From Pseudosulfitobacter pseudonitzschiae (GTDB lineage Bacteria > Pseudomonadota > Alphaproteobacteria > Rhodobacterales > Rhodobacteraceae): a stretch of DNA of 64,000 nucleotides. The DNA lies in the NCBI RefSeq assembly GCF_900129395.1, contig NZ_FQVP01000001.1:744001-808000 (forward strand), read 5' to 3'. Shown here in pieces: positions 19,779 to 31,351 of this stretch. The notes below the pieces were generated by a model, which saw only the letters and a program-made list of their open reading frames with translations, did not search any database and was not told where the DNA came from. Numbering within the stretch: position 1 is the first letter of the stretch; each line of letters begins with the position of its first letter. A program made the position numbers and the translations under genes.

Positions 19779-21407
19779 ATGACAGTTAAGACGATTTCCA
19801 CCACCGCTTTCAATGACCAAAAACCGGGAACTTCTGGCCTTCGCAAAAAGACGCGCAGCTTCATGGTGCCGCATTATCTGGAAAATTACGTCGCGGCGAC
19901 CTTCACCGCGATTGGCGGTGGTTCGGGCAAATCATTTGTGCTGGGTGGGGACGGTCGATTCTTCAACCGAGAAGCCATCCAGACGATCCTGAAAATGGCC
20001 GCAGCCCAAGGCGCGGCAAGGGTCATCGTGGGGCAGGGCGGTTTGCTGTCCACGCCCGCCGCCTCGCACCTGATCCGCCTGAACGGGGCCGACGGGGGTT
20101 TCATCCTGTCGGCCAGCCACAACCCCGGCGGCATCGATGCGGACTTTGGCCTGAAATTCAACGCGGCCAATGGCGGTCCCGCGTCCGAGGCGCTGACAGC
20201 CAGGATCTACGACGCGACGCTGGCAATCGAAAGCTATGATATTGCGTATGTGGAGGATGTGAACCTCGACACGGTTGGCCAGACGCGGATCGGCGATATG
20301 GTCATCGACGTGGTGGACCCCGTCGTCGACTACAGCGACCTGATGGCCAGCCTGTTCGATTTCGACGCCATCCGCGCGCTTTTCGCGGGCGGGTTTTCGA
20401 TGCGGTTCGACGCCATGCACGCGGTCACCGGACCATACGCCCACAAGATCCTTGAGGGCACCCTGGGTGCGCCCGAAGGCACCGTTGTGAACGGCACCCC
20501 CTCCGAGGATTTCGGCAAGGGTCACCCCGACCCGAACCCGATCTGGGCCAAGGACCTGATGGACCTGATGCTGTCAGAGGCAGCGCCAGACATGGGGGCC
20601 GCGTCAGATGGCGACGGCGACCGGAATATGATCGTGGGCAAGGGGACATATGTCACCCCCTCGGACAGCCTGGCGATACTGGCCGCCAACGCGCATCTGG
20701 CGCCGGCCTACCGGGACGGGATCGCGGGCATTGCCCGTTCCATGCCCACCAGCGCCGCCGCCGACCGCGTCGCCGACGCGTTGGGCGTGCCCTGCTTTGA
20801 AACGCCAACGGGCTGGAAATTCTTCGGCACGTTGCTGGACGCGGACCGGGTGACCATCTGCGGCGAGGAAAGCGCCGGCACAGGATCGCATCACGTGCGT
20901 GAGAAAGACGGGTTGTGGGCTGTGCTGCTGTGGCTGAACATTCTGGCCGCGCGCGACATGACCGTGGCACAGGTTCAGGCCGACCACTGGCAACGGTTCG
21001 GGCGCAATTACTATGCGCGCCATGACTACGAAGCCGTCGAAAGCACGCGGGCCGAGGCGATGATGACGCACCTGCGCGGGCAACTGGACACCATGGCGGG
21101 GCAAAGCTTTGCCGGGCTGACCGTCACGAAGGCAGACGATTTCGCCTATACCGATCCCGTCGATGGATCGACAAGCGCCGCGCAGGGCATCCGCCTGTTC
21201 TTTGACGGTGGCGCGCGTGCCGTGTTCCGCCTGTCGGGCACCGGTACAGAAGGGGCAACCATCCGGCTTTATCTTGAGCAATTCGTGGACGACGGCGATC
21301 ACGCGGCCCCCGTTGAACAGGTGCTGGAACAGGTGCGCAAGGCAGCGCTTGAGGTCAGCGACCTGCCTGCTTTGACAGGGCGCAACACCCCCGACGTGAT
21401 CACCTGA
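19779..21407 (+). CDS. pgm: Alpha-D-phosphoglucomutase
   Basis: The 542-residue length is right for the glucose-specific phosphoglucomutase. The start MTVKTISTTAFNDQKPGTSG is followed by the phosphoserine loop SASHNPGG (111-118, Ser113), the metal loop ASDGDGDRN, the sugar-binding CGEESAG and the phosphate-binding RLSGTGTEGATIR. It interconverts glucose 1-phosphate and glucose 6-phosphate in the cytoplasm, linking glycolysis with glycogen and envelope sugar synthesis. It stands alone between the acyl-CoA region and the kinase operon, and has no evident functional link with either. Confidence 0.95.
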   Translation: MTVKTISTTAFNDQKPGTSGLRKKTRSFMVPHYLENYVAATFTAIGGGSGKSFVLGGDGRFFNREAIQTILKMAAAQGAARVIVGQGGLLSTPAASHLIRLNGADGGFILSASHNPGGIDADFGLKFNAANGGPASEALTARIYDATLAIESYDIAYVEDVNLDTVGQTRIGDMVIDVVDPVVDYSDLMASLFDFDAIRALFAGGFSMRFDAMHAVTGPYAHKILEGTLGAPEGTVVNGTPSEDFGKGHPDPNPIWAKDLMDLMLSEAAPDMGAASDGDGDRNMIVGKGTYVTPSDSLAILAANAHLAPAYRDGIAGIARSMPTSAAADRVADALGVPCFETPTGWKFFGTLLDADRVTICGEESAGTGSHHVREKDGLWAVLLWLNILAARDMTVAQVQADHWQRFGRNYYARHDYEAVESTRAEAMMTHLRGQLDTMAGQSFAGLTVTKADDFAYTDPVDGSTSAAQGIRLFFDGGARAVFRLSGTGTEGATIRLYLEQFVDDGDHAAPVEQVLEQVRKAALEVSDLPALTGRNTPDVIT

Positions 21408-21554: not shown

Positions 21555-23945
21555 GTGTTTGAAAACTGGCGAAAGGTCTCAACTCCACGGGCCCAATCGG
21601 TCATTTATCCGGTCGAAATTTCGCAATGCCGCATTTCCGAACAGATGTGGGTGCCCAAAGGGTCCATCGCTTATGAATTGCGCGATGCCAACGGACGCCG
21701 CATCGGGCTGAAAGCACCCTATGACGGATTTGTTCATCCGTTCCTGGCCGTGGGTCAGACCATCGACAGCCCCGCCGTCGCCTTTTACGTGGTGCAGGCC
21801 GAAGAAGGGGCCGAACTGGACAGCGAGGGGCGCGTGCATCATGCGTCCAACGCCGACTATGCCCCTTCGGGTGACGCGGACATCGCCGAGGATGACCAGT
21901 GGGAAGACGAGGACCTGGGCGAGGAGCTGCCCAACGGCACCACGCTGGCCAACGGGCAATACACAATCAAACGCTATATCGCGGCGGGTGGTTTCGGCAT
22001 CACCTATTTCGCCGAGGACAACCTGGGCCGTTCGGTTGTCATCAAGGAATGCTTTCCCGCCTCGATCTCGCGGCGGCGTGATACCCGGGTCAGCGCCGCC
22101 ACCCGCGACCAGCAGCCGACGCTGCGCAAGTGCATCCGGCTGTTCGTGAAAGAGGCGCGGGTGCTGGCACAGTTGCACCACCCCAATATCGTGGGCGTCA
22201 AAGGCTGTTTCGAGGAAAACGGCACCGCCTATATGGTGCTGGAACGGGTCCACGGCCGTGACATCGACTGGAACCTTGAGCACAACCGCGAGGCGCTGAC
22301 GCCCGAGTTCGTGGAGTTTCTGGCGCGCACGATGCTGGACACGCTGGCCACGGTGCATGACGCCGGAATGCTGCACCGTGACGTGTCGCCCGGCAACATC
22401 ATGATTGACGAGGACAGCCAGCCGATGCTGATCGACTTTGGCGCCGCGCGTGCCGAGGTGACCAAGGCCAGCCGCGCCGTGTCGACACATCCCGTGGTCA
22501 AGGACGGCTATTCTCCGAACGAGCTTTATATCGCGGGCGCCTTGCAGACGCCTGCAACCGATCTCTATGCGCTGGCGGGGACGCTTTACCACGTGATTAC
22601 GGGCGCTGTGCCGCCTGCTGCGGACATGCGCCAGCATATGATATCAAACGGCGAGGCGGACCCCTATGTGCCCCTGTCGGGGCAATATCCCGATCATGCG
22701 CAGGGCCTGTTGTCGGCCATCGACAAATGCATGTCCCTGCGCATGGCCGACCGCAGTCAGACCGCCGCGGAATGGCTGGCGATGATGGACACCAAGGCCC
22801 CCGCGAAAGACCGGGCCAAAGCGGCAGAGGCAAAGACGGCCAAACCTGCCCCCGAAAAAGCCGCGCCTGCAAAGGCCCCGTCGCTCACGGCCTTTCTGGC
22901 AACTGCGTTGTCGCGTCAGAATTCGGGGGCCTTGAACAAGACACCGTTGGTTGCCCCCGAAACTCTGCGTGACTGGGCCCGCGACCTGATCGAGAAGGCG
23001 CGGCTGTTTCACGGCAGCAACAAGGCCTTTGGCCTGTTGACGCCGGACGATTTCACCGTGGTCGATGGCAAGCACCTGAAGCTGCGCCTGGATTTCGATC
23101 CAGTGCCGATGTCGTCCAAGGTTGCTGCTGCAAACGTGCCTGCGGCGATGACCCGCTATGTCGCGCCAGAGTTGCTGGCGGCGGATGTGGCGGTGACAGA
23201 GGCGTCGGATGTCTACGCGATTGCCGCGATCATGTTCGCCTGCCTGACTGGTCGTCCGCCCGCCGCCGACGTCACGCGCAAGATCCCCGCCACGATGTTC
23301 GGCCCGAAGCCATTGTTTGACACCATCGACGCGGCGCTGAATCCCAGACCCGGACAGCGCCCGACCCTGGATGCCTTTGCACGGTTCACGACCCTTTCGA
23401 CCCGTGACGCCGAAACGGCCAAGGCAACAGACAGTGCGAAACCAAAGCCCAAGCCCAAACCGCGCGCCGCACCCAAGGATGCGCCGCCGAAACGGGCACC
23501 GGCAGGGGACCATCCCAGCGGCTTCCTGTCATGGGCCACGCTGGTCATGACCGGTGCGCTGATCCCTCTGGCGGTGGCTTCGGTGGCGAATATGTTCACC
23601 TTTGGCGACCCGTTGTATTCGTTTGAGACCATAAGGCTTTTCATCGGGGAAAAATTTGACGTGGACGGCGATGTACCGTGGTTCGCGGCAGCGTTTCTGG
23701 CGGTGAGCGGTGTGATTTTTGCGCTGATCACCCGTCAGGCCCGCAAGGCGCGCCCGGTGCCTGAACGGCGCTGGTTGCCTGTCGTTTCGGCCTTCTTGCT
23801 GGGCTTCCAGATCCTGCCCGTACTGCTTGCCGAACAGGTTTATACCGAGGCCCCCTCGCACCACGAACTTTTGCTGAGCGTCGGCCTGGGGGCGGTCTTT
23901 GCCCTTGTGGCGGTGTTCCTCTTTCGTCCGAAACCCGCCGCCTGA
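21555..23945 (+). CDS. Membrane-anchored Ser/Thr protein kinase with a second degenerate kinase domain
   Basis: The protein has 796 residues and starts with GTG. Residues 1-85 form a small beta-rich domain resembling a lipoyl/HlyD-like hairpin (APYDGFVHPFLAVGQTIDS), followed by an acidic linker. The active Hanks-type kinase covers about 135-410: glycine loop AAGGFGIT (143-150), Lys164 in VVIKE, HRDVSPGN (274-281) and DFG (294-296). After an Ala/Lys/Pro linker, residues 462-614 look like a remnant kinase C-lobe: TRYVAPELL (533-541) and SDVYAIAAIMFACLTGRPP are kept, but the glycine loop, HRD and DFG are missing. A second Pro/Lys linker leads to about four membrane spans (658-680, 710-726, 741-760, 772-790). 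It heads the FHA operon and is its only predicted kinase. Confidence 0.92.
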   Translation: MFENWRKVSTPRAQSVIYPVEISQCRISEQMWVPKGSIAYELRDANGRRIGLKAPYDGFVHPFLAVGQTIDSPAVAFYVVQAEEGAELDSEGRVHHASNADYAPSGDADIAEDDQWEDEDLGEELPNGTTLANGQYTIKRYIAAGGFGITYFAEDNLGRSVVIKECFPASISRRRDTRVSAATRDQQPTLRKCIRLFVKEARVLAQLHHPNIVGVKGCFEENGTAYMVLERVHGRDIDWNLEHNREALTPEFVEFLARTMLDTLATVHDAGMLHRDVSPGNIMIDEDSQPMLIDFGAARAEVTKASRAVSTHPVVKDGYSPNELYIAGALQTPATDLYALAGTLYHVITGAVPPAADMRQHMISNGEADPYVPLSGQYPDHAQGLLSAIDKCMSLRMADRSQTAAEWLAMMDTKAPAKDRAKAAEAKTAKPAPEKAAPAKAPSLTAFLATALSRQNSGALNKTPLVAPETLRDWARDLIEKARLFHGSNKAFGLLTPDDFTVVDGKHLKLRLDFDPVPMSSKVAAANVPAAMTRYVAPELLAADVAVTEASDVYAIAAIMFACLTGRPPAADVTRKIPATMFGPKPLFDTIDAALNPRPGQRPTLDAFARFTTLSTRDAETAKATDSAKPKPKPKPRAAPKDAPPKRAPAGDHPSGFLSWATLVMTGALIPLAVASVANMFTFGDPLYSFETIRLFIGEKFDVDGDVPWFAAAFLAVSGVIFALITRQARKARPVPERRWLPVVSAFLLGFQILPVLLAEQVYTEAPSHHELLLSVGLGAVFALVAVFLFRPKPAA

Positions 23946-23992
23946 GGCGATCACAAGCCCCTCTCCGGGACCGAATTCAAAAGGAAAGACAG

Positions 23993-24580
23993 ATGGAAAA
24001 GAAACAGTTTTACCGCTCGTCGGACCTGCCTGACTCCGAAGGCAGTGCCTCGAAGAAAACCCGGCCCCTGGGCGACAACGCGGGCAGAGGCGCGGCGACC
24101 ACGCCAGCCGAAGAGGTGCGGATGACGCCCGACCCGGAATCCACCGCGCGCAAGAGCCCGCCGAAAACGCGGCCCCTGGGCCATGGCGGCAGCCGCGCGG
24201 ATGCGGCACCGGCGATGGACGCCGATGACGACAGCCTGCCCGTGGTCGGTTGGCTGGTGGTTTACAAGGGGCCCGGCCGCGGCAAGGCCGTGCAGTTGGT
24301 CAATGGCATGAACTCCATCGGGCGTGGCGACGATCAGGCCGTACAGGTGGATTTCGGCGACGAAAGCATTTCGCGCGGCACCCATGCCTATGTGATCTAC
24401 GACGATGAAGAGCGCAATTTCCACGTCAGCCACGGCGGTAAGCAGAACCTTGTGCGCCTGAACGGCAAACCGGTGCTGAACTCAGAGCCGCTGGCCAATG
24501 GTGACAACATCCGTCTGGGTGCCACGACCATGCGGTTCTGCGCGCTGTGTGGCCCTGATTTCGACTGGTCCGACGCATGA
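23993..24580 (+). CDS. FHA-domain protein with two KTRPLG repeats
   Basis: The 195-residue protein has a disordered N-terminal half and a C-terminal FHA domain (about 105-178) that binds phosphothreonine. The FHA motifs are SIGRGDDQAVQVDFGDESIS-type (GR at 110-111, SRGTH at 127-131) and the GKQNLVRLNGKPV turn. The N-terminal half has two nearly equal short motifs, KKTRPLGDN (21-29) and PKTRPLGHG (58-66), each with one threonine in a basic context. These look like phospho-acceptor sites for the kinase encoded before it, as in GarA-type proteins where the tail docks on the protein's own FHA domain. An ATGA overlap joins it to the phosphatase gene. Confidence 0.9.
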   Translation: MEKKQFYRSSDLPDSEGSASKKTRPLGDNAGRGAATTPAEEVRMTPDPESTARKSPPKTRPLGHGGSRADAAPAMDADDDSLPVVGWLVVYKGPGRGKAVQLVNGMNSIGRGDDQAVQVDFGDESISRGTHAYVIYDDEERNFHVSHGGKQNLVRLNGKPVLNSEPLANGDNIRLGATTMRFCALCGPDFDWSDA

Positions 24581-25749
24581 GCAAGGCGCGGTTTCATTAC
24601 GACACGGCCTTTGCGCTGTCGCAGGGCGGGCGGGACTATCAGGAGGATTGCCTGCTGTCCGCCTTTGGCGGTGGCGCGGCACAGGGCTTTGCCGTTCTGG
24701 CCGATGGCATGGGCGGGCAGGCGGCGGGGGACGTCGCCTCGCAACTGGTGGCCTATGAAGTCGCATTCGATCTGCAGAACCGTCTGCGCGACGGACCGGG
24801 GGCCGAGAACGGCCTGCCTGCCAGCCTGCGCGGCATGGCGGACCGTGCCAATGAAACCATCGCCGACAATGTCGAACACAACCCCGACCGCGAGGGTATG
24901 GGGGCCACGTTGCTGGCCACCGTCATGTTCCAGAACCGGCTGTATTGGGTGTCTGTGGGCGACAGCCCGCTGTACCTGTACCGCGACGGCGCGCTGCGCC
25001 AGATCAACGAAGATCACTCCATGGCCCCGATCATCGCCAAGATGGTCGAAGACGGCGAGCTTGACCCAGAAGCGGCGCTGAACCATCCCAACCGCAATGC
25101 GCTGACCTCGGTGCTGATGGGGGGCAAGGTCAAGCTGAAGAACGCGCCCGAGACCGCCACCGAGCTGCAACAGGGCGACGTGGTGATTGCCGCCAGCGAT
25201 GGTCTGCAATTCCTGTCCGACGCGATGATTGCCGAGGTTTTGGCCGAACAGGCGGGTGCGTCGTCGCAGCAGATATGCACCGCACTGATGCAAGCGCTCG
25301 AGGCGCTGGACGATCCCGATCAGGACAACATCGCCATTCTGGTGCTGCAACTTGCCCGCCAGACCGACACGCCACCGCCGCCACGCGGACGGCCCCAGCA
25401 GATCACCCGCGAACGGCCCAAGGCCGCCGCCGCCGCCGTGCGCAGCGTCGAGACGTTCATGCCCGAACCCGACCCCGAGCAGATCAAGCAAGCCGCCCCG
25501 CAGCCCGCAGCGCCTGCGGGGCAAGCCACTCCGTCCAAGCTGCCGCTGGCCTTGATCGCCGGCGTTATCGTGGCCGCTCTGGTCGTCCTGGTGCTGGCCT
25601 ATCTCTACATTTTCGGCCGACCGGCGCCGGGTCGGATGCAAATGTCTGAATACCCCGTGACATCGGAACGTGCATCCGCAAGTGCCGGCCGCGAAACGGA
25701 TAAATATCTTGGCTATGACCAGAACCGGAGCATGAGCAGTGGCAGATAA
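24577..25749 (+). CDS. PP2C-family Ser/Thr protein phosphatase with C-terminal membrane anchor
   Basis: The protein has 390 residues. The PP2C domain covers about 5-262, with its metal ligands in RDYQEDC (19-25), LADGMGG (41-47), ASDGL (206-210) and DQDNIAIL (248-255), and GMGATLLATV and VGDSPLYLYR between. A proline-rich linker leads to one membrane span (about 323-346) and a short outer tail. It should remove phosphate from threonines set by the kinase, from the cytoplasmic side of the membrane. In type VI secretion the same role is played by PppA, which is soluble; the anchor is a difference. It overlaps its neighbours on both sides. Confidence 0.93.
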   Translation: MSKARFHYDTAFALSQGGRDYQEDCLLSAFGGGAAQGFAVLADGMGGQAAGDVASQLVAYEVAFDLQNRLRDGPGAENGLPASLRGMADRANETIADNVEHNPDREGMGATLLATVMFQNRLYWVSVGDSPLYLYRDGALRQINEDHSMAPIIAKMVEDGELDPEAALNHPNRNALTSVLMGGKVKLKNAPETATELQQGDVVIAASDGLQFLSDAMIAEVLAEQAGASSQQICTALMQALEALDDPDQDNIAILVLQLARQTDTPPPPRGRPQQITRERPKAAAAAVRSVETFMPEPDPEQIKQAAPQPAAPAGQATPSKLPLALIAGVIVAALVVLVLAYLYIFGRPAPGRMQMSEYPVTSERASASAGRETDKYLGYDQNRSMSSGR

Positions 25750-27151
25750 CACCTTTTTTCGCGCACCAAAGGCGGTGGCGCTGCTCACCGCTTTGGCCCT
25801 GTGGCTGCCTCAGGTGAGCAGGGCGCAAATCGCGCCGCTGGACTGTCGCGCAACCGAGGACGGGGGGCATGATTGCACCGTATTCTTTCCCGGTGGCACC
25901 GACATCGCCCGGACCACGCTGACCCTCTCCGACGGCACCGAAGTTGCGCACAGCTTCACCGCCGAGCCGACCGAACTGCAAGCCCCCGACGCGGATGCGC
26001 CGCGCGTGCTCTTCCTGGCCTTCGACACATCGAACCCCGCGCGCGCCGCGATCCTGCGCCAATCGCTGGACAGCGCCTGGGCGCTGGTCGAACTGGTGCC
26101 GCCGCAAACCCCGATTGGCCTGGGCACCTTTGACGAGAACTTTGCCGAAGTGCAGGCGCCCACAACCGACCGCGACGTGCTGCAACAGGCGATTGCTGGC
26201 ATTCAGGCCAACGGGCAGACCACCAACTTGTACGAGGCGACGCTGGACATACTCAACATATTGCCAGCCGCGCCTGACGGGCGTCGTGACATTGTCCTGT
26301 TCTCTGACGGCAATGCAGAAGACACCGCATTTACCCTGCAAGACGTGTCCGAGCGGTCGCGTAAGATGGGCGTGCGGGTCAACGGGCTGGGCGCTGTGCT
26401 GCGGGCCAGCGAAACGAAATACACCCAAACGCTGGAACGGATGGCCGAAGAAACAGGCGGGCTGTATTTCGGCACGGCGCCGGGCAATGCCAATTTTGCC
26501 ACCGAGGATCTGAGCCGGATCGCGCAACTGGGCGAAGGCGTGGGTGTTGTCAGCTTTGACGCGGGCTTTGTCCGCGAGGGCACGCTAGTGCTGACCACCG
26601 CAACGGGACGCAGCCTGCGCTATCAGATCGCGCCGGTCGGGCCGGATGCGGCCGAGGAAGAGGCGGCCAGGGAGCCGCAGCAGGAACCTGCCGCGTCGCT
26701 GATCGACAACATCCCGCTGGCCGGGTGGATTGCCGGCGGCGCGTTGCTGTTCCTGATCCTGCTTCTGGGCCTGCGTGGTCGTCGCAAACCGCCACAACCC
26801 GAGATGGCGGAGCCAGATCCGACGCCGATGCCGGACCCCGTGCCAACACCCGACCCGGTCAAGGTCTACGGCGTGCTGACCACCGTAAACGGTGAGGATC
26901 TGTACCTGACCTCGTCCATTTCGACGCTGGGCCGTTCCGGGGACGCCGACATCGTTCTGGATGATCCGTCCGTGTCACGCCGCCACGCGACACTTTCGGT
27001 CACCGGCGACGGTGCCATGCAAATCGTGGACCTGAATTCCCTCAATGGCGTGCTGGTCAACGGCACGCGGGTCACGTCGGCCGAGGTCAAGGCCGGCGAT
27101 ACATTGCAACTGGGCGAGGTCAGTCTGACCTTCGGCTATCCCAACGACTGA
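25739..27151 (+). CDS. Signal peptide-VWA-transmembrane-FHA protein
   Basis: This 470-residue protein starts with GTG inside the end of the phosphatase gene (11-base overlap). Residues 1-29 are a signal peptide. The periplasmic part has a VWA-like domain (about 88-245). Its metal site is altered: FDTSNP (95-100) has Pro where the last Ser of D-x-S-x-S is expected, while FSDGNAED (188-195) is kept. A membrane span lies at about 326-346, then a Pro/Asp-rich linker and a complete FHA domain (about 395-465) with LGRSGDADI, SRRHA and NSLNGVLVNG. It thus joins an outside binding module to an inside phosphothreonine reader. A role as receptor or adaptor of this system is inferred. Confidence 0.9.
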   Translation: MADNTFFRAPKAVALLTALALWLPQVSRAQIAPLDCRATEDGGHDCTVFFPGGTDIARTTLTLSDGTEVAHSFTAEPTELQAPDADAPRVLFLAFDTSNPARAAILRQSLDSAWALVELVPPQTPIGLGTFDENFAEVQAPTTDRDVLQQAIAGIQANGQTTNLYEATLDILNILPAAPDGRRDIVLFSDGNAEDTAFTLQDVSERSRKMGVRVNGLGAVLRASETKYTQTLERMAEETGGLYFGTAPGNANFATEDLSRIAQLGEGVGVVSFDAGFVREGTLVLTTATGRSLRYQIAPVGPDAAEEEAAREPQQEPAASLIDNIPLAGWIAGGALLFLILLLGLRGRRKPPQPEMAEPDPTPMPDPVPTPDPVKVYGVLTTVNGEDLYLTSSISTLGRSGDADIVLDDPSVSRRHATLSVTGDGAMQIVDLNSLNGVLVNGTRVTSAEVKAGDTLQLGEVSLTFGYPND

Positions 27152-27161
27152 GGAGCGAGAC

Positions 27162-27998
27162 ATGCGCGGCTGGAGCGTCTCCATAACCATCCAAGAGGCC
27201 GGACGTACCGTGCTGTCCGAACAGGGCTTGCCCTTGCCCGCGCGCCTGATCCGCGACGGGGACAGCGGTGCCGTGGCTCTGATCGACGGGGCAGGGGTGG
27301 CGCATCCGCTGGCACAGAACCGCTTTGACGTGTCGCGCCAGCATATGACGCTGAGCGCCGAAGCCGACGGCACGCTGTTGATCGCGGACCAGTCGACCAA
27401 TGGCGTTTTCGTGTCGCAACAGAACACCGCGCGTCTGATCGGCAAGGGCAATACGATGGCCATTCCGGCGCAATTGCAGGTGATGCTGGACACGGTTGGT
27501 TTCGACATCCGCGTTCAAAGCCAGCCGCCGCGTGCGCCCCGCGCAAACAGCAACCTGCACGCCGAGGTGCGGCTGGCGGGCAAGCTGCACCGCGTGGCGC
27601 TGGACCGTACCCCGCTGGTTGTGGCGGGCGGTGCGCTGGCGGGCGGATACAGTTACGACCGCCACGGCGATCTGAACGGAATCCTCGCAGCCCTTGGCAG
27701 CCGCGTCGCACTGGTCATCGCCCCCGACCACAGCGGGCACATGCACGCGGTCGCCACCACCGGCCTTGCCGCGCAACTGAACCGCCGCCAGATCGGCCAG
27801 AACCAACCCGAACCGGTTGCACATGGGGTCTTGCTGACCTTTGAGGGCGGGCACCTGCACCTGATCAGGGCAGGAGCGGACAGGCAACTGGCCTGTGTCA
27901 ACGACACTTGCCTGATGCTGAACGACTACAAACCCGGCCAGAACTGCGTGTATTGCGGCACCCGTCTGGGTGACGCGCACACACGGTTCATCGGATAG
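27162..27998 (+). CDS. FHA-domain protein with C-terminal four-cysteine motif
   Basis: The 278-residue protein has an N-terminal FHA domain (about 25-115) with the core residues in SRQHMTL (58-64) and DQSTNGVFV (76-84). The middle part (about 130-240) is a beta-rich domain that I do not recognise. The end has Cys245, Cys250, Cys262 and Cys265 (C-x4-C-x11-C-x2-C, ending CVYCGTRLG), which fits a small zinc ribbon or redox site. No signal peptide or membrane span is seen, so it is cytoplasmic. It lies between the VWA-FHA receptor and the FHA-flavoprotein, with short gaps of 10 and 14 bases. Confidence 0.85.
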   Translation: MRGWSVSITIQEAGRTVLSEQGLPLPARLIRDGDSGAVALIDGAGVAHPLAQNRFDVSRQHMTLSAEADGTLLIADQSTNGVFVSQQNTARLIGKGNTMAIPAQLQVMLDTVGFDIRVQSQPPRAPRANSNLHAEVRLAGKLHRVALDRTPLVVAGGALAGGYSYDRHGDLNGILAALGSRVALVIAPDHSGHMHAVATTGLAAQLNRRQIGQNQPEPVAHGVLLTFEGGHLHLIRAGADRQLACVNDTCLMLNDYKPGQNCVYCGTRLGDAHTRFIG

Positions 27999-28012
27999 GA
28001 ACAGAGACGCCC

Positions 28013-29959
28013 ATGACGGTTTTGCTGACATTCAACGTGATCGAGCTGGACTCTGCAGGCCAGCCCAGAGGGCCGGGCGCACCGCTGGAGATTGACGAGA
28101 CCGGCACGATCTCATTCGGCTCTTCGTCCGAGCGTGACATCGTGCTTGAGGGCGACCTGATCTCGCGCCATCATTTTGACCTGACCGTTTCTGACAGCCG
28201 CGTGATGCTGACCGACCAGAACAGCACCAACGGCACGCAGGTCAACAACATGCGCGTGGGTCTGGCCGAACTGGGGCAGGGCGATGTGATCGACATTCCC
28301 GGCTGGCGGCTTGAGGTTACTTCCCTGAGCTTCGGCGTGACAGAGCCCGAGACCACCGTGTCCCCGCAGGGTTTTCCCCATGATGTCTTTGGCGATGACA
28401 CGCTCGTTGATGTGGGCACCTTGCACAGCCACGGCTATCCGATCGAGGAACGCAAGTTCTGTGCGGTTGGCGGCGGGCTGGGGTCCTTCACCTTTGTCGA
28501 TCATCTGCGGTGCTACGGTGTTCCGTCCAGCGACATTGCAGTGATCGGCACCGAAAAAGTCAGCTATGCCACCTATAAACGCTACTGCCGCGACAGCCAG
28601 ATCCCCGACCACGAACGGCTGCGGTCCAATTCGCTGTCCACGCCCGACAACATCTGGGGCTTTCCCGGATACGCCAGCCGCGAGGCCTTTGGCGGGTTGT
28701 TGCGCGGGCGTCTGGGCGGATTCAAGCGGATTTTCCAGGTCTTTGGCGAACCGACACTGGCCGAAAGCTATACGCCGCGCGCAGGCGACGTGTTCGACAG
28801 CCTGGACCGCGAGGAACGGCGCATCGACTGGCCCGCGATGCACCGGCAGGGACAGGCGCGCTGTATCCGCAAGCTGAACGACGGGCGCTATGCCGTGGCC
28901 TACACGATGCGCGATCCTGCGGTGGCCGAGGCGGACCGCCGCCGCATCATCATCGCCGATGTGCTACATCTGGCCACAGGCTATCCGGCCACGCGATTTG
29001 TCGATGATTTCCAGACGTTTATCGTGAACTATCCCGATCACCGCCACATGGTCCACAACGCCTATGCGCCGCACGACCAGATCTACGACGCCGCCGAGGC
29101 CGCAAACGGGCCGGTCTATGTCGTGGTGCGCGGACGCGGGATCGTCGCCAGCCGGATCATCCAGCGCCTGCACGAGGCGCGCAAACGCAACCCCCAAATC
29201 ACCATCCTGCATTCGATGCGCTCGAAACTGGACCCGACCAGCGGCGCACGCTATGGCCGGGCGCGCAGACAGGTGCGCACCAACATCGAGATTCAGCCGT
29301 TCAACTGGCCGAAATCCTGTTGGGGCGGCGATTTGCGGTTCGAATACGAACGCGCCGATAAGGCCAAGCGCGGCGCCATGCTGACCACGCTGGGCGGAAC
29401 CACCACGGCCGAACGCAGCGACTGGATCGGGATCATCGAACGCGGCACGGAAGAGGGGTGGTACAAACCTGTCTACGGCTCGATCCGCGAGATCTTGCCG
29501 CATGATGACAGCCCCGACAAAGTCATGATCCGCGTCGAGGGCGAGGGCGGCCACCGCGCCGAGCTGATCGCCGATTACCTTGTCGATTGTACCGGCCTGA
29601 TCAGCGACATCACGCGGTCCAGCCTGTTGAACGACCTGATCGAAACCTACTCGTTGCCGCGCAACCACGCCTATGCGCGCAAGGGCGACGGGTTTGAAAA
29701 ACGCGGGCCCACCGGGCTGGACGTCACACCACATTTCGAGATCGAGGGCCTGCGCAACCAGCGCGGCCGCGTCTATGCCTCGGGGACCGTGACCTCGGGC
29801 GGGCCTTACCTGGCGGTGGACAGCTTTTTGGGCCTGCAATATTCGGCGCTGCGCAGCACCGACCATCTGGTGACCGAAGGCGCGCATGGCGTGAAAAACC
29901 TTGGGCCGCTGCGGTCCGCCGGACAATGGCTGAAATGGTGCAGGGGGGCGAAACCATGA
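28013..29959 (+). CDS. FHA domain fused to an FAD/NAD(P)-dependent oxidoreductase
   Basis: The protein has 648 residues. The FHA domain (about 25-105) has all core motifs: SFGSSSERD (34-42), SRHHF (51-55) and NSTNGT (70-75). From about 148 it continues as a two-dinucleotide-binding flavoprotein: AVGGGLGSF (151-159) for FAD, VRGRGIVASRI (372-382) as a second Rossmann turn, ATGYPATRF (321-329) and YASGTVTSGGPYLAVDSF (589-606) near the FAD ribityl site. The pattern resembles flavin monooxygenase or sulfide-quinone-type reductases, but I cannot name a substrate. A phospho-binding domain on a metabolic flavoenzyme suggests that its activity or location is set by the operon's kinase. It overlaps the next gene by 4 bases. 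Confidence 0.88.
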   Translation: MTVLLTFNVIELDSAGQPRGPGAPLEIDETGTISFGSSSERDIVLEGDLISRHHFDLTVSDSRVMLTDQNSTNGTQVNNMRVGLAELGQGDVIDIPGWRLEVTSLSFGVTEPETTVSPQGFPHDVFGDDTLVDVGTLHSHGYPIEERKFCAVGGGLGSFTFVDHLRCYGVPSSDIAVIGTEKVSYATYKRYCRDSQIPDHERLRSNSLSTPDNIWGFPGYASREAFGGLLRGRLGGFKRIFQVFGEPTLAESYTPRAGDVFDSLDREERRIDWPAMHRQGQARCIRKLNDGRYAVAYTMRDPAVAEADRRRIIIADVLHLATGYPATRFVDDFQTFIVNYPDHRHMVHNAYAPHDQIYDAAEAANGPVYVVVRGRGIVASRIIQRLHEARKRNPQITILHSMRSKLDPTSGARYGRARRQVRTNIEIQPFNWPKSCWGGDLRFEYERADKAKRGAMLTTLGGTTTAERSDWIGIIERGTEEGWYKPVYGSIREILPHDDSPDKVMIRVEGEGGHRAELIADYLVDCTGLISDITRSSLLNDLIETYSLPRNHAYARKGDGFEKRGPTGLDVTPHFEIEGLRNQRGRVYASGTVTSGGPYLAVDSFLGLQYSALRSTDHLVTEGAHGVKNLGPLRSAGQWLKWCRGAKP

Positions 29960-30411
29960 TTCCGACGCTTGCGGGGCGCATCCAGACGCGTCTGTTGCTG
30001 TTCGTGCTGCTGGGCATTCCGCTGACAGCACTGTTTTCGTGGCTGTGGCTGCCGCTGTACTGGGACCTGCTGTTCGTGTTCCTGCTGACCGTGCTGGCCA
30101 CGGTCACCGGCTTTGGTTTGATCATGGACGTGGTCTATATCGGCCTGCAAAGACTGCGCTGGGACCGCGACTGGCCCTTTGCCTATCAGTTCTTCTTTTC
30201 CATCGTCGAATTCGCCCTTGTCCTGTGGGCTGCGCGTTCGGGTCTGATCCCATGGCTGCCGGCCGAGGCGCTGGCAGGCACCGACGGGTTGATCATGGCC
30301 TCATCCCATTTCGCCACGGTGTTCATCCCGTCCTTCCTTGCGCTGCTGGGGCCGATTTCGGTGTTCTTCATCCGCTGGCGGTTCAAGGCGGGCCAATTGG
30401 GCAAGCTCTGA
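29956..30411 (+). CDS. Four-span membrane protein of unknown function
   Basis: The ATG at 29956 overlaps the flavoprotein stop and gives 151 residues; a reading from 29926 lies inside the flavoprotein gene. Four hydrophobic segments are visible at about 13-30, 36-62, 75-93 and 116-140, with basic residues at both ends. No motif of a known family is recognised. It has conserved-looking charged loops (LQRLRWDRDWPFAYQ) and a single base separates it from the permease gene. The tight spacing suggests a partner or accessory subunit of the TSUP permease or of the membrane-bound kinase. Confidence 0.8.
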   Translation: MIPTLAGRIQTRLLLFVLLGIPLTALFSWLWLPLYWDLLFVFLLTVLATVTGFGLIMDVVYIGLQRLRWDRDWPFAYQFFFSIVEFALVLWAARSGLIPWLPAEALAGTDGLIMASSHFATVFIPSFLALLGPISVFFIRWRFKAGQLGKL

Positions 30412-30412
30412 G

Positions 30413-31351
30413 ATGGCAGGCTTTATGCGCCTCTGGACGCCCTTGCATCTGGCCGCGCTGGCGATTGCCTATGTCTGGCTGGTACAGGTGTCGGACCTGA
30501 CGACAGAGGTGGTCAGCGGCCTGTGGTTCTTTTTCCCCGTGGGCATCATGGGTGCCATCATCGCCAACGCCACGGGCACCGGTGGCGGCGTGGTGTTCGT
30601 GCCGGTGTTCACCGCACTGGAAAAAGGCGGCATCATGGTGCCGCCCGAACTGCAAACTCTCGCATCACTGTCGCCGCAGGAATCCGTTGGCGTTTCCTTT
30701 ATGATCCAATGCTTTGGCATGTCGGTCGGCGCGCTGGTCTGGGGCAGGGCGATTTTTGTCAAGGATACGCTGGCCTGGGATGAAAAGATCGCGCCGCACA
30801 CGTTGCTGGCGCTGACGGCGGCACCACTGGCCACCGGGATACCGGCGCTGCTGCTGACCCAGAACTTTGTCAGCGTCGATGGCAAAAGCCTGATTTTCTA
30901 CTTCAAGATATTCTCGCTGTTGCTGGGCACTGTGCTGTTGCTGTTCACCTGGGCGCAGCGCAGGCAACCGGCGTCCCAGCGCAAGCTGCACGTCACACCG
31001 GGCGAGCTGTGGGTGCTGCTGGGGCTGGGCATCATCGGTGGTGCGGTGACGGCGCTGTTCTCGGTGGGCATCGGCGAATTTCTGGCGATCTTCCTGATCC
31101 TGAAGAAATTCCCGACCAAGGTCGCCATCGCGGTCGCGGTCTGGGTGTCGGTGGTCTGTGTGCTGTGTGGTGTCTGGGACAACCTGCTGTCGGGACAGGT
31201 TCGCATCGAGATCGCCCTGATCGCGATACCGGGGGCGATCATCGGCGGTTTCCTGGCCAAACAGATCGCGCAGGTCTTGGGATCGCTGTGGCTCAAGACC
31301 TTGGCGTCGCTCTGGATCATCGCGTCGAGCATCTATCTGCTGCTTACCTAG
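30413..31351 (+). CDS. TSUP family (TauE/SafE-like) membrane transporter
   Basis: The ATG at 30413 gives 312 residues with about eight membrane spans. The two repeat halves typical of the family show as ATGTGGGVVFVPVF (53-66) and SVGIGEFLAIFLIL (217-230). Members move sulfite, sulfonates or other organosulfur anions, but many are uncharacterised. As the last gene of the kinase/FHA operon it is a plausible final target of the signalling, perhaps removing or importing an anion that the flavoenzyme makes or uses. The link to sulfur is inference from the family only. Confidence 0.88.
   Translation: MAGFMRLWTPLHLAALAIAYVWLVQVSDLTTEVVSGLWFFFPVGIMGAIIANATGTGGGVVFVPVFTALEKGGIMVPPELQTLASLSPQESVGVSFMIQCFGMSVGALVWGRAIFVKDTLAWDEKIAPHTLLALTAAPLATGIPALLLTQNFVSVDGKSLIFYFKIFSLLLGTVLLLFTWAQRRQPASQRKLHVTPGELWVLLGLGIIGGAVTALFSVGIGEFLAIFLILKKFPTKVAIAVAVWVSVVCVLCGVWDNLLSGQVRIEIALIAIPGAIIGGFLAKQIAQVLGSLWLKTLASLWIIASSIYLLLT

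Follow-up and report, generated by a model that had tools for sequence, protein, structure and literature searches.

Sets of Ser/Thr kinase, PP2C phosphatase, and FHA genes in Gram-negative bacteria are easily taken for switches of type VI secretion systems (T6SSs). Does such a set always serve secretion? We examined this question for eight genes at 21555–31351 of a 64,000-nucleotide stretch of Pseudosulfitobacter pseudonitzschiae DNA (contig NZ_FQVP01000001.1, positions 744,001 to 808,000 of the forward strand; hereafter the window), in which a kinase, a PP2C, and four FHA proteins are encoded together with a putative flavoprotein and a TSUP permease. We read this conserved set as a stand-alone threonine-phosphorylation relay rather than a T6SS switch, and as one output variant of a modular Rhodobacteraceae cassette, with a probability of about 0.55.

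The eight genes share one strand, with intervals of 47, −4, −11, 10, 14, −4, and 1 bases, figures that depend on the preferred start codons. Open reading frames (ORFs), start codons, and Pfam matches bear out the original prediction, made from the letters alone, of eight kinase/phosphatase/FHA genes with gaps of 47 bases or less. Three of its four proposed overlaps are certain; the fourth would require the TSUP gene to begin at the TTG at 30338, and the ATG at 30413 is the likelier start. The predicted three FHA proteins and one VWA–transmembrane–FHA protein are likewise present, with Pfam FHA in genes 2, 4, 5, and 6 and VWA_2 in gene 4. In the 4.95 Mb, 35-contig genome, a genome-wide search detects FHA domains at three sites, each of them inside the operon, and the weaker FHA domain of gene 2 is visible only in a per-protein scan. 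We compared the window with its near relative Sulfitobacter sp. 20_GPM-1509m (L024; L023 is the same locus), whose gene 6 is 97% identical. The ratios of nonsynonymous to synonymous substitution rates (dN/dS) for this one genome pair are 0.104, 0.077, 0.036, 0.146, 0.088, 0.058, 0.065, and 0.021 for genes 1–8 and 0.076 for a neighboring gene at 19779 (phosphoglucomutase by eye), indicating purifying selection on all eight genes. Because dN/dS is low throughout and the gene order is kept in another genus, the operon is more than a chance arrangement, and its existence as an operon-like set of eight genes is confirmed (Table 1). A promoter and terminator scan gave nothing exceeding the shuffled expectation.

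Table 1. Genes of the operon and the accessory stretch that holds it, in window coordinates.
Feature	Position	Strand	Basis
Gene 1, Ser/Thr kinase, 796 aa	21555–23945	+	Pfam PF00069 (Pkinase), 125 bits
Gene 2, FHA protein with disordered-looking N-terminal tail	23993–24580	+	Pfam FHA, 33 bits
Gene 3, PP2C phosphatase	24577–25749	+	PF13672 (PP2C_2), 40 bits
Gene 4, VWA–transmembrane–FHA protein	25739–27151	+	PF13519 (VWA_2), 33 bits; PF00498 (FHA), 72 bits
Gene 5, FHA, middle domain, and C-terminal zinc-ribbon-like end	27162–27998	+	Pfam FHA, 25 bits
Gene 6, FHA (~1–105) fused to putative two-dinucleotide-binding flavoprotein (~121–648)	28013–29959	+	Pfam FHA, 57 bits
Gene 7, four-span membrane protein, 151 aa	29956–30411	+	Hydropathy
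Gene 8, TSUP (TauE/SafE) permease	30413–31351	+	PF01925, 69.6 bits (gathering score 32.6)
Accessory stretch holding the operon, ~30.6 kb	21409–52047		blastn of window against sister loci

The absence of Tss genes, which had led the original prediction to call the set stand-alone, extends, as judged by TssC, to most of the carriers tested. Fifteen carriers of the flavoprotein are known: the window, its own-genus relative, and 13 Jannaschia, including Jannaschia sp. CCS1 (G167). G167 agrees with the CCS1 plasmid NC_007801.1 at 6000 of 6000 sampled bases, and the genus name is taken from this match. TssC/VipB (PF05943) is absent from nine of the ten carriers tested (the window's own genome, which is among the nine, the own-genus relative G294, and eight of the 13 Jannaschia genomes, with five known carriers left out). 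The sole TssC-positive carrier, CCS1, has its T6SS about 1.45 Mb from the block. None of 28 ORFs in 39 kb around the CCS1 TssC genes matched, at E ≤ 1e-6, any of 40 sequences from the window, the carriers, and related cassettes; these ORFs come from a crude caller and certainly include some false ones. The TagH model TIGR03354 scores 32.1, 21, and 11.7 bits on genes 4, 5, and 2, against a cut-off of 120.25. The set therefore does not occur only beside T6SS genes, and judged by gene content the operon is independent of T6SS. It is not an isolated system, however: the kinase–FHA–PP2C core is part of a wider cassette, usually with dynamin-like outputs (17 of 20 loci, described below).

A search for conserved neighborhoods had been suggested as a check, and the FHA-to-TSUP block, minus the VWA–FHA gene, proved to be conserved in Jannaschia. 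Besides the window, we read 14 loci, one from the own-genus relative and 13 from Jannaschia (two of which sit on contigs about 9 kb long). Gene order and strand inside the block are constant across the loci read. The genes for the FHA/zinc-ribbon protein (26–30% identity), the FHA-flavoprotein, and the four-span protein are present at 13/13 Jannaschia loci, where gene 7 lies directly 3′ of the flavoprotein gene with 52–58% identity. Gene 2 and the PP2C gene are found at 12 loci, the thirteenth contig (L058) beginning within the block, and the TSUP gene is also found at 12. No VWA–FHA gene occurs at the 13 Jannaschia loci, to which this search was confined, and the VWA is therefore no general part of the system. 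Where the contigs reach, Jannaschia kinases lie downstream on the opposite strand, two per locus: one has a coiled coil and a long tail after the transmembrane span, with weak propeller-like matches only, and the other has a coiled coil. A dual-specificity-phosphatase-like gene (L015 16298–16948 and relatives) stands beside or between these kinases at 11 of the 13 loci and is possibly a third enzyme of the relay.

Within the order, gene 6 is found in nine of 292 genomes and two of 113 genera. TSUP orthologues (E ≤ 1e-40) occur in nine of 284 genomes, the same nine that carry gene 6, supporting a co-occurrence of FHA-flavoprotein and TSUP. Since these nine genomes represent two genera, the co-occurrence reflects two lineages and not nine independent events. 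The operon is accessory in its own genus (gene 6 in two of six genomes) and fixed in Jannaschia as far as sampled (13 of 13). The accessory status follows from the sister genomes G293 and G295, which lack the stretch between a phosphoglucomutase-like gene (window 19779–21407) and a phoB-like region (labels by eye). In G293 the phoB-like region begins 287 bases after the phosphoglucomutase-like gene, and in G295 a single transposase-like ORF, which we take to be IS30-like, stands between them. G292 has different genes after the phosphoglucomutase-like gene, the G296 contig stops within that gene, and G294, represented by L024, can be aligned to the window by blastn across 18.0–40.0 kb. The accessory stretch also holds CoA-ligase-like genes, an enoyl-CoA hydratase, ABC transporter genes, an M81 peptidase, and a thiamine pyrophosphate enzyme.

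We then followed the signaling core beyond the flavoprotein carriers. Relatives of the PP2C (E ≤ 1e-20) are present in 22 of 51 genomes and 13 of 32 genera. Leaving aside the operon and the corresponding Jannaschia loci, 28 such places were listed and 20 were fetched (12–16.5 kb each); the eight unfetched places are mostly weaker matches, a few of them strong. At 17 of the 20, a kinase, the orthologous FHA protein, and PP2C are encoded together with proteins similar to dynamin-family proteins of Ruegeria (PF00350). With the probes used, the remaining three loci gave PP2C together with a kinase in one case and PP2C alone in two. The typical output is a pair of dynamin-like GTPases, often with a zeta-like, hypothetical, or solute-binding-like protein; the zeta-like (19.6 bits versus 22.3) and solute-binding-like proteins fall below Pfam cut-offs. 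Gene 2 has relatives in 19 plasmid records. Four were read: two Leisingera plasmids and one from Ruegeria carry the same kinase–FHA–PP2C–dynamin set, and an Azospirillum plasmid encodes FHA, PP2C, kinases, and a VWA–FHA-like protein similar to gene 4, with no dynamin match. The sample of 51 includes three Jannaschia genomes, and in two of them, G029 and G007, both cassette types are present (L099, L107). Dynamin cassette loci are L086–L088, L090–L093, L095–L102, L104–L107, and L109. In Ruegeria-type cassettes (L087 13141–15551; L105; L109), two genes follow PP2C, with an annotated transporter substrate-binding domain in L087, and the FHA tails carry KTTFLG in place of KTRxLG. These substrate-binding-domain genes are possibly a periplasmic sensor input.

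The window's operon combines the three features by which we recognize the cassette, namely the orthologous FHA protein with its tail motif, PP2C, and kinase, and it appears to be a rare output alternative of a cassette shared across Rhodobacteraceae (in the GTDB sense). Phylogenetic trees are consistent with an exchange of parts. A single branch sets all 14 flavoprotein-type rows apart from the rest in the PP2C tree (38 rows; support 93/59), and another does so in the FHA tree (35 rows; 92/85). In the kinase tree, the kinase of the window falls among those of dynamin cassettes (91/78) and is separated from those of Jannaschia (98/93), and it has therefore probably been exchanged. In our reading, FHA-PP2C and the flavoprotein arm would have moved as one unit.

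The shared core also has a short motif in the tail of the gene 2 FHA protein. In the window this tail contains two KTRPLG motifs, with the threonines at positions 23 and 59. A search of 39 loci gave orthologues of gene 2 at 35, and KT[RT]x[LIH]G is present in 32 of the 35 tails, 14–53 residues ahead of the aligned FHA region, where per-tail shuffling predicts 0.008. This comparison overstates significance, because the pattern was picked by inspection of the sequences and the tails are related rather than independent. The tails otherwise vary in length and sequence, and the motif appears in both cassette types and in many genera. Two of the three tails that lack it have RTRL[LI]G, and the third, from Azospirillum, has neither. 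No called ORF at these loci other than the FHA gene has a related pattern, but at many of them the caller overlooked the FHA gene itself. The motif threonine is a candidate phospho-acceptor and putative target of the kinase.

The enzymes that would write and erase such a mark look intact. Gene 1 retains GGFGIT (145), VIKE (162), HRD (274), and DFG (294), so its kinase domain is active-looking; a second, degenerate kinase-like region lacks HRD and DFG, and hydropathy predicts four C-terminal transmembrane spans. The N-terminal 160 residues have no PDB match at E ≤ 5. By eye only, about 120 residues of this region (21555–21920) have the look of a lipoyl-type beta domain. The PP2C of gene 3 retains QED (22), DGMGG (43), SDG (207), and DN (250), has one C-terminal transmembrane span by hydropathy, and scores 145 bits on the Stp1-like model NF033484, below its cut-off of 230. 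Gene 4 has a signal-peptide-like N-terminus (by eye), a VWA domain, a transmembrane span at 322–340 (hydropathy), and a canonical FHA domain. Its VWA domain probably lies in the periplasm, as originally proposed, and the protein looks like a receptor or scaffold that links periplasm to cytoplasm. The C-terminal Cx4C...Cx2C cysteines of gene 5 are kept in the window and in five Jannaschia proteins read, and a search of the plasmid collection with gene 5 gave no match.

Gene 6 had been described as an FHA domain fused to an FAD enzyme. The fusion is clear, and the enzyme assignment comes down to motifs within residues 121–648: GGGxGSF (GGGLGSF in the carriers), VIGTE with its acidic second-strand end, HL[AS]TGYP, a second RGRGIVASR followed by an Arg, DCTG, and a C-terminal GRVYA[SA]G block. 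The dinucleotide-binding motifs and the C-terminal block are nearly invariant over 15 sequences, and we take the set to be the pattern of two-dinucleotide-binding flavoproteins that prefer NADPH. A stand-alone homologue without FHA is encoded in Nonomuraea (505 residues, 36.6% identical across 97% of the query), at L029 14947–16464 of Nonomuraea gerenzanensis NZ_LT559118.1, an 11.85 Mb record filed as a plasmid; the plasmid collection contains no further relative of it. In three overlapping draws of Pseudomonadota genomes (398, 398, and 259), relatives of gene 6 were confined to the two known genera. The same draws gave one FHA-only match and five chance-level profile matches (E 0.017–0.047): a PF13454 flavoprotein, a PF07992 flavoprotein, and, by eye, a flavin-dependent-halogenase-like protein, a GC-rich reading frame, and a sensor-like protein. 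Viral contigs contained 54 stretches with the gene 6 pattern, none confirmed as a relative, and phages contained none. A single-sequence query of genome contigs brought up one close relative.

The two remaining genes encode membrane proteins. Gene 7 has 151 codons from the ATG that overlaps the gene 6 stop, or 161 from an ATG at 29926, and has no Pfam match at E ≤ 1 and no NCBIfam match. Gene 8, with seven spans by hydropathy, is a TSUP family member by its Pfam score; it has no PDB relative at E ≤ 1 and no match in the plasmid collection. Organosulfur compounds or sulfite are frequent substrates of TSUP proteins.

Together, these features suggest how a relay of this kind might work. An outside cue, received by the VWA receptor in the window or by the tailed kinases in Jannaschia, would set the balance of kinase and PP2C activity, the domain outside the membrane presumably acting as sensor. 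The kinase would phosphorylate the threonine of the KTRPLG-type motif in the gene 2 tail, with the membrane PP2C opposing it, so that the two enzymes set a phosphothreonine level that the FHA proteins read. The FHA domains of genes 2, 4, 5, and 6 could then exchange phosphothreonine contacts in the manner of OdhI/GarA, and the FHA-fused flavoprotein would be recruited to, or released from, the membrane holding the four-span protein and TSUP. There, it might perform an NAD(P)H-dependent redox step, and TSUP might move a small anionic, perhaps sulfur-containing, substrate or product. Flavoprotein and anion transporter would on this account be the targets of phosphorylation; more speculatively, gene 6 would be the enzyme under regulation, gene 7 would serve as an anchor or as a subunit of the transporter, and TSUP would carry substrate or product. 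We propose only tentatively, and with less than even confidence, a generalization in which the cassette is a plug-in phosphothreonine relay of Alphaproteobacteria with an exchangeable sensor kinase, a conserved FHA/PP2C core, a KTRxLG-type switch, and varied outputs, the flavoenzyme, from a family not yet described, being under direct phosphothreonine control by way of its own FHA domain and forming with TSUP a phosphorylation-gated membrane redox and transport complex.

Several observations weigh against this relay. The association of its output genes is supported by two genera only, and one Jannaschia genome, G668, has the flavoprotein and four-span genes without TSUP at the locus, the only place searched. 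PP2C relatives are common (173 plasmid records), and the FHA and PP2C clade supports are moderate. The FHA domain of gene 2 has one additional residue between the conserved SR and H. At the usual GR position, the FHA domain of gene 6 has GS in the own genus or GK in Jannaschia; as the Arg of this turn is the usual phosphate contact, its replacement by Ser or Lys makes phosphothreonine binding by gene 6 doubtful. Residues 121–648 of gene 6 have no match in Pfam (E ≤ 1), NCBIfam, or PDB. AlphaFold models from alignments of 10 and 15 rows are unusable as wholes (predicted local distance difference test scores, pLDDT, of 45.8 and 42.5); the low-confidence model shows a local strand–helix–strand at 248–282 of the domain, with blocks at 241–280 reaching pLDDT 59–85.

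Other explanations account for parts of these data. An orphaned PpkA/PppA/Fha switch, left behind after loss of tss genes, would have the same parts (kinase, PP2C, FHA, and VWA, the last borne on PpkA in Pseudomonas; PMC3224232) and would explain the weak TagH matches. These scores are far below cut-off, however, all eight genes are under purifying selection, and CCS1 has T6SS and block at separate places; with TssC absent in nine of ten carriers and the CCS1 T6SS ORFs unmatched, we rejected a T6SS remnant, which is very improbable. An anti-phage or toxin–antitoxin kinase–phosphatase module whose effector is the flavoprotein, or in sister cassettes the dynamin-like proteins, is unlikely. The PADLOC kinase models PD-T4-6 (175 bits) and mad6 (159 bits) match gene 1, the operon sits in an accessory stretch in its own genus, some sister cassettes include a gene similar to one annotated as belonging to the zeta toxin family, and a prophage kinase–kinase–phosphatase module with FHA protects against phages (PMC11341870). 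Yet the other seven proteins lack a PADLOC match at E ≤ 0.01, the flavoprotein is present in 13/13 Jannaschia, unlike patchy defense islands, and TSUP would be an odd component.

The setting in Jannaschia could instead point to an operon for the breakdown of methylated amines or organosulfur compounds in which the signaling genes are incidental. At the 11 Jannaschia loci that reach far enough, genes for MttB, an M19 dipeptidase, a 561-residue protein, and DUF3726 precede the block on the same strand (L020 614–5529, and the equivalent place in L015–L019, L021, L022, and L055–L057), and further upstream, in the two genomes read, are genes that we take to resemble those of betaine/dimethylglycine catabolism; the substrates usual for TSUP would fit as well. 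The 561-residue family, one member of which was scanned and had no Pfam match, is however widespread in the order (159 of 283 genomes) and not found in the window's own genome at E ≤ 1e-40, so this neighbor, the only one surveyed, is independent of the block. We therefore rejected the betaine/methylamine neighborhood as part of the system, and since FHA domains on four proteins, together with a kinase and a PP2C, are no incidental addition, a catabolic operon is quite improbable. It is also rather unlikely that gene 6 is no enzyme and that its Rossmann-like part is an inactive scaffold or an NAD(P)H/FAD redox sensor for the relay. The lack of enzyme family matches agrees with such a role, and an FHA fusion suits a sensor or scaffold equally well, but the near-invariance of the dinucleotide-binding motifs and C-terminal block argues against it, and the FHA-less Nonomuraea homologue suggests an enzyme in its own right.

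The cassettes form a family in which a signaling core is kept and the output is changed, and the tail motif provides a single residue to test. The block would also allow a test of phosphothreonine gating of a flavoprotein and a transporter, comparable to that of the actinobacterial 2-oxoglutarate dehydrogenase, and the flavoprotein part of gene 6 belongs to no named sequence family in the databases searched. In the open-licence PubMed Central (PMC) literature, searched by titles and abstract starts, we found no description of a kinase–FHA–PP2C set with flavoprotein, TSUP, or dynamin, nor of the dynamin-type cassette, which may deserve more attention than the operon itself.

How does the operon compare with known phosphothreonine systems? 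In the Pseudomonas aeruginosa H1-T6SS PpkA–PppA–Fha1 pathway, a phosphorylated FHA protein draws the machinery to the inner membrane (PMC3224232). Both sets combine a membrane Ser/Thr kinase, a PP2C, an FHA protein, and an extracellular VWA domain; the operon differs in having no tss genes, in carrying its VWA on an FHA protein (gene 4) rather than on the kinase, in FHA proteins that score far below the TagH cut-off, and in its added flavoprotein, four-span protein, and TSUP. OdhI/GarA is an FHA protein with a phosphorylatable threonine in its N-terminal region that controls 2-oxoglutarate dehydrogenase (PMC8546545). Like the PknG–OdhI/GarA system, the operon has a small FHA protein (gene 2) with a conserved threonine motif in the tail before the FHA domain, but this motif is KTRPLG-like rather than ETTS, gene 2 scores 28.7 bits on the OdhI model NF041660 (cut-off 200), and the operon adds a membrane PP2C, further FHA proteins, and a putative enzyme bearing its own FHA domain.

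Other known systems share some of the elements. The archaeal ArnA–ArnB module, which modulates archaellum gene expression (PMC6509490), also unites an FHA and zinc finger protein (ArnA), a VWA partner (ArnB), and Ser/Thr kinases, whereas the operon's zinc ribbon is C-terminal and its VWA and FHA are joined in one membrane-crossing chain. Prophage kinase–kinase–phosphatase (KKP) modules, in which a PP2C precedes two kinases of 900–1300 bp with CSD and FHA fusions (PMC11341870), likewise combine PP2C, kinase, and FHA domains; the operon, with one kinase, eight genes, and FHA on separate proteins, falls outside the definition of KKP. Actinobacterial GTPase-centered systems, whose neighborhoods include kinase, PP2C, and VWA (PMC7159879), are parallel in composition only. 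Counterparts within the same bacterial family are the dynamin cassettes of Leisingera, Ruegeria, Jannaschia, and others, which share the orthologous tail-motif FHA protein, PP2C, and kinase and, like the operon, have no match among the CCS1 T6SS ORFs; in place of their two dynamin-like GTPases, the operon has the FHA/zinc-ribbon protein, the FHA-flavoprotein, the four-span protein, and TSUP as outputs.

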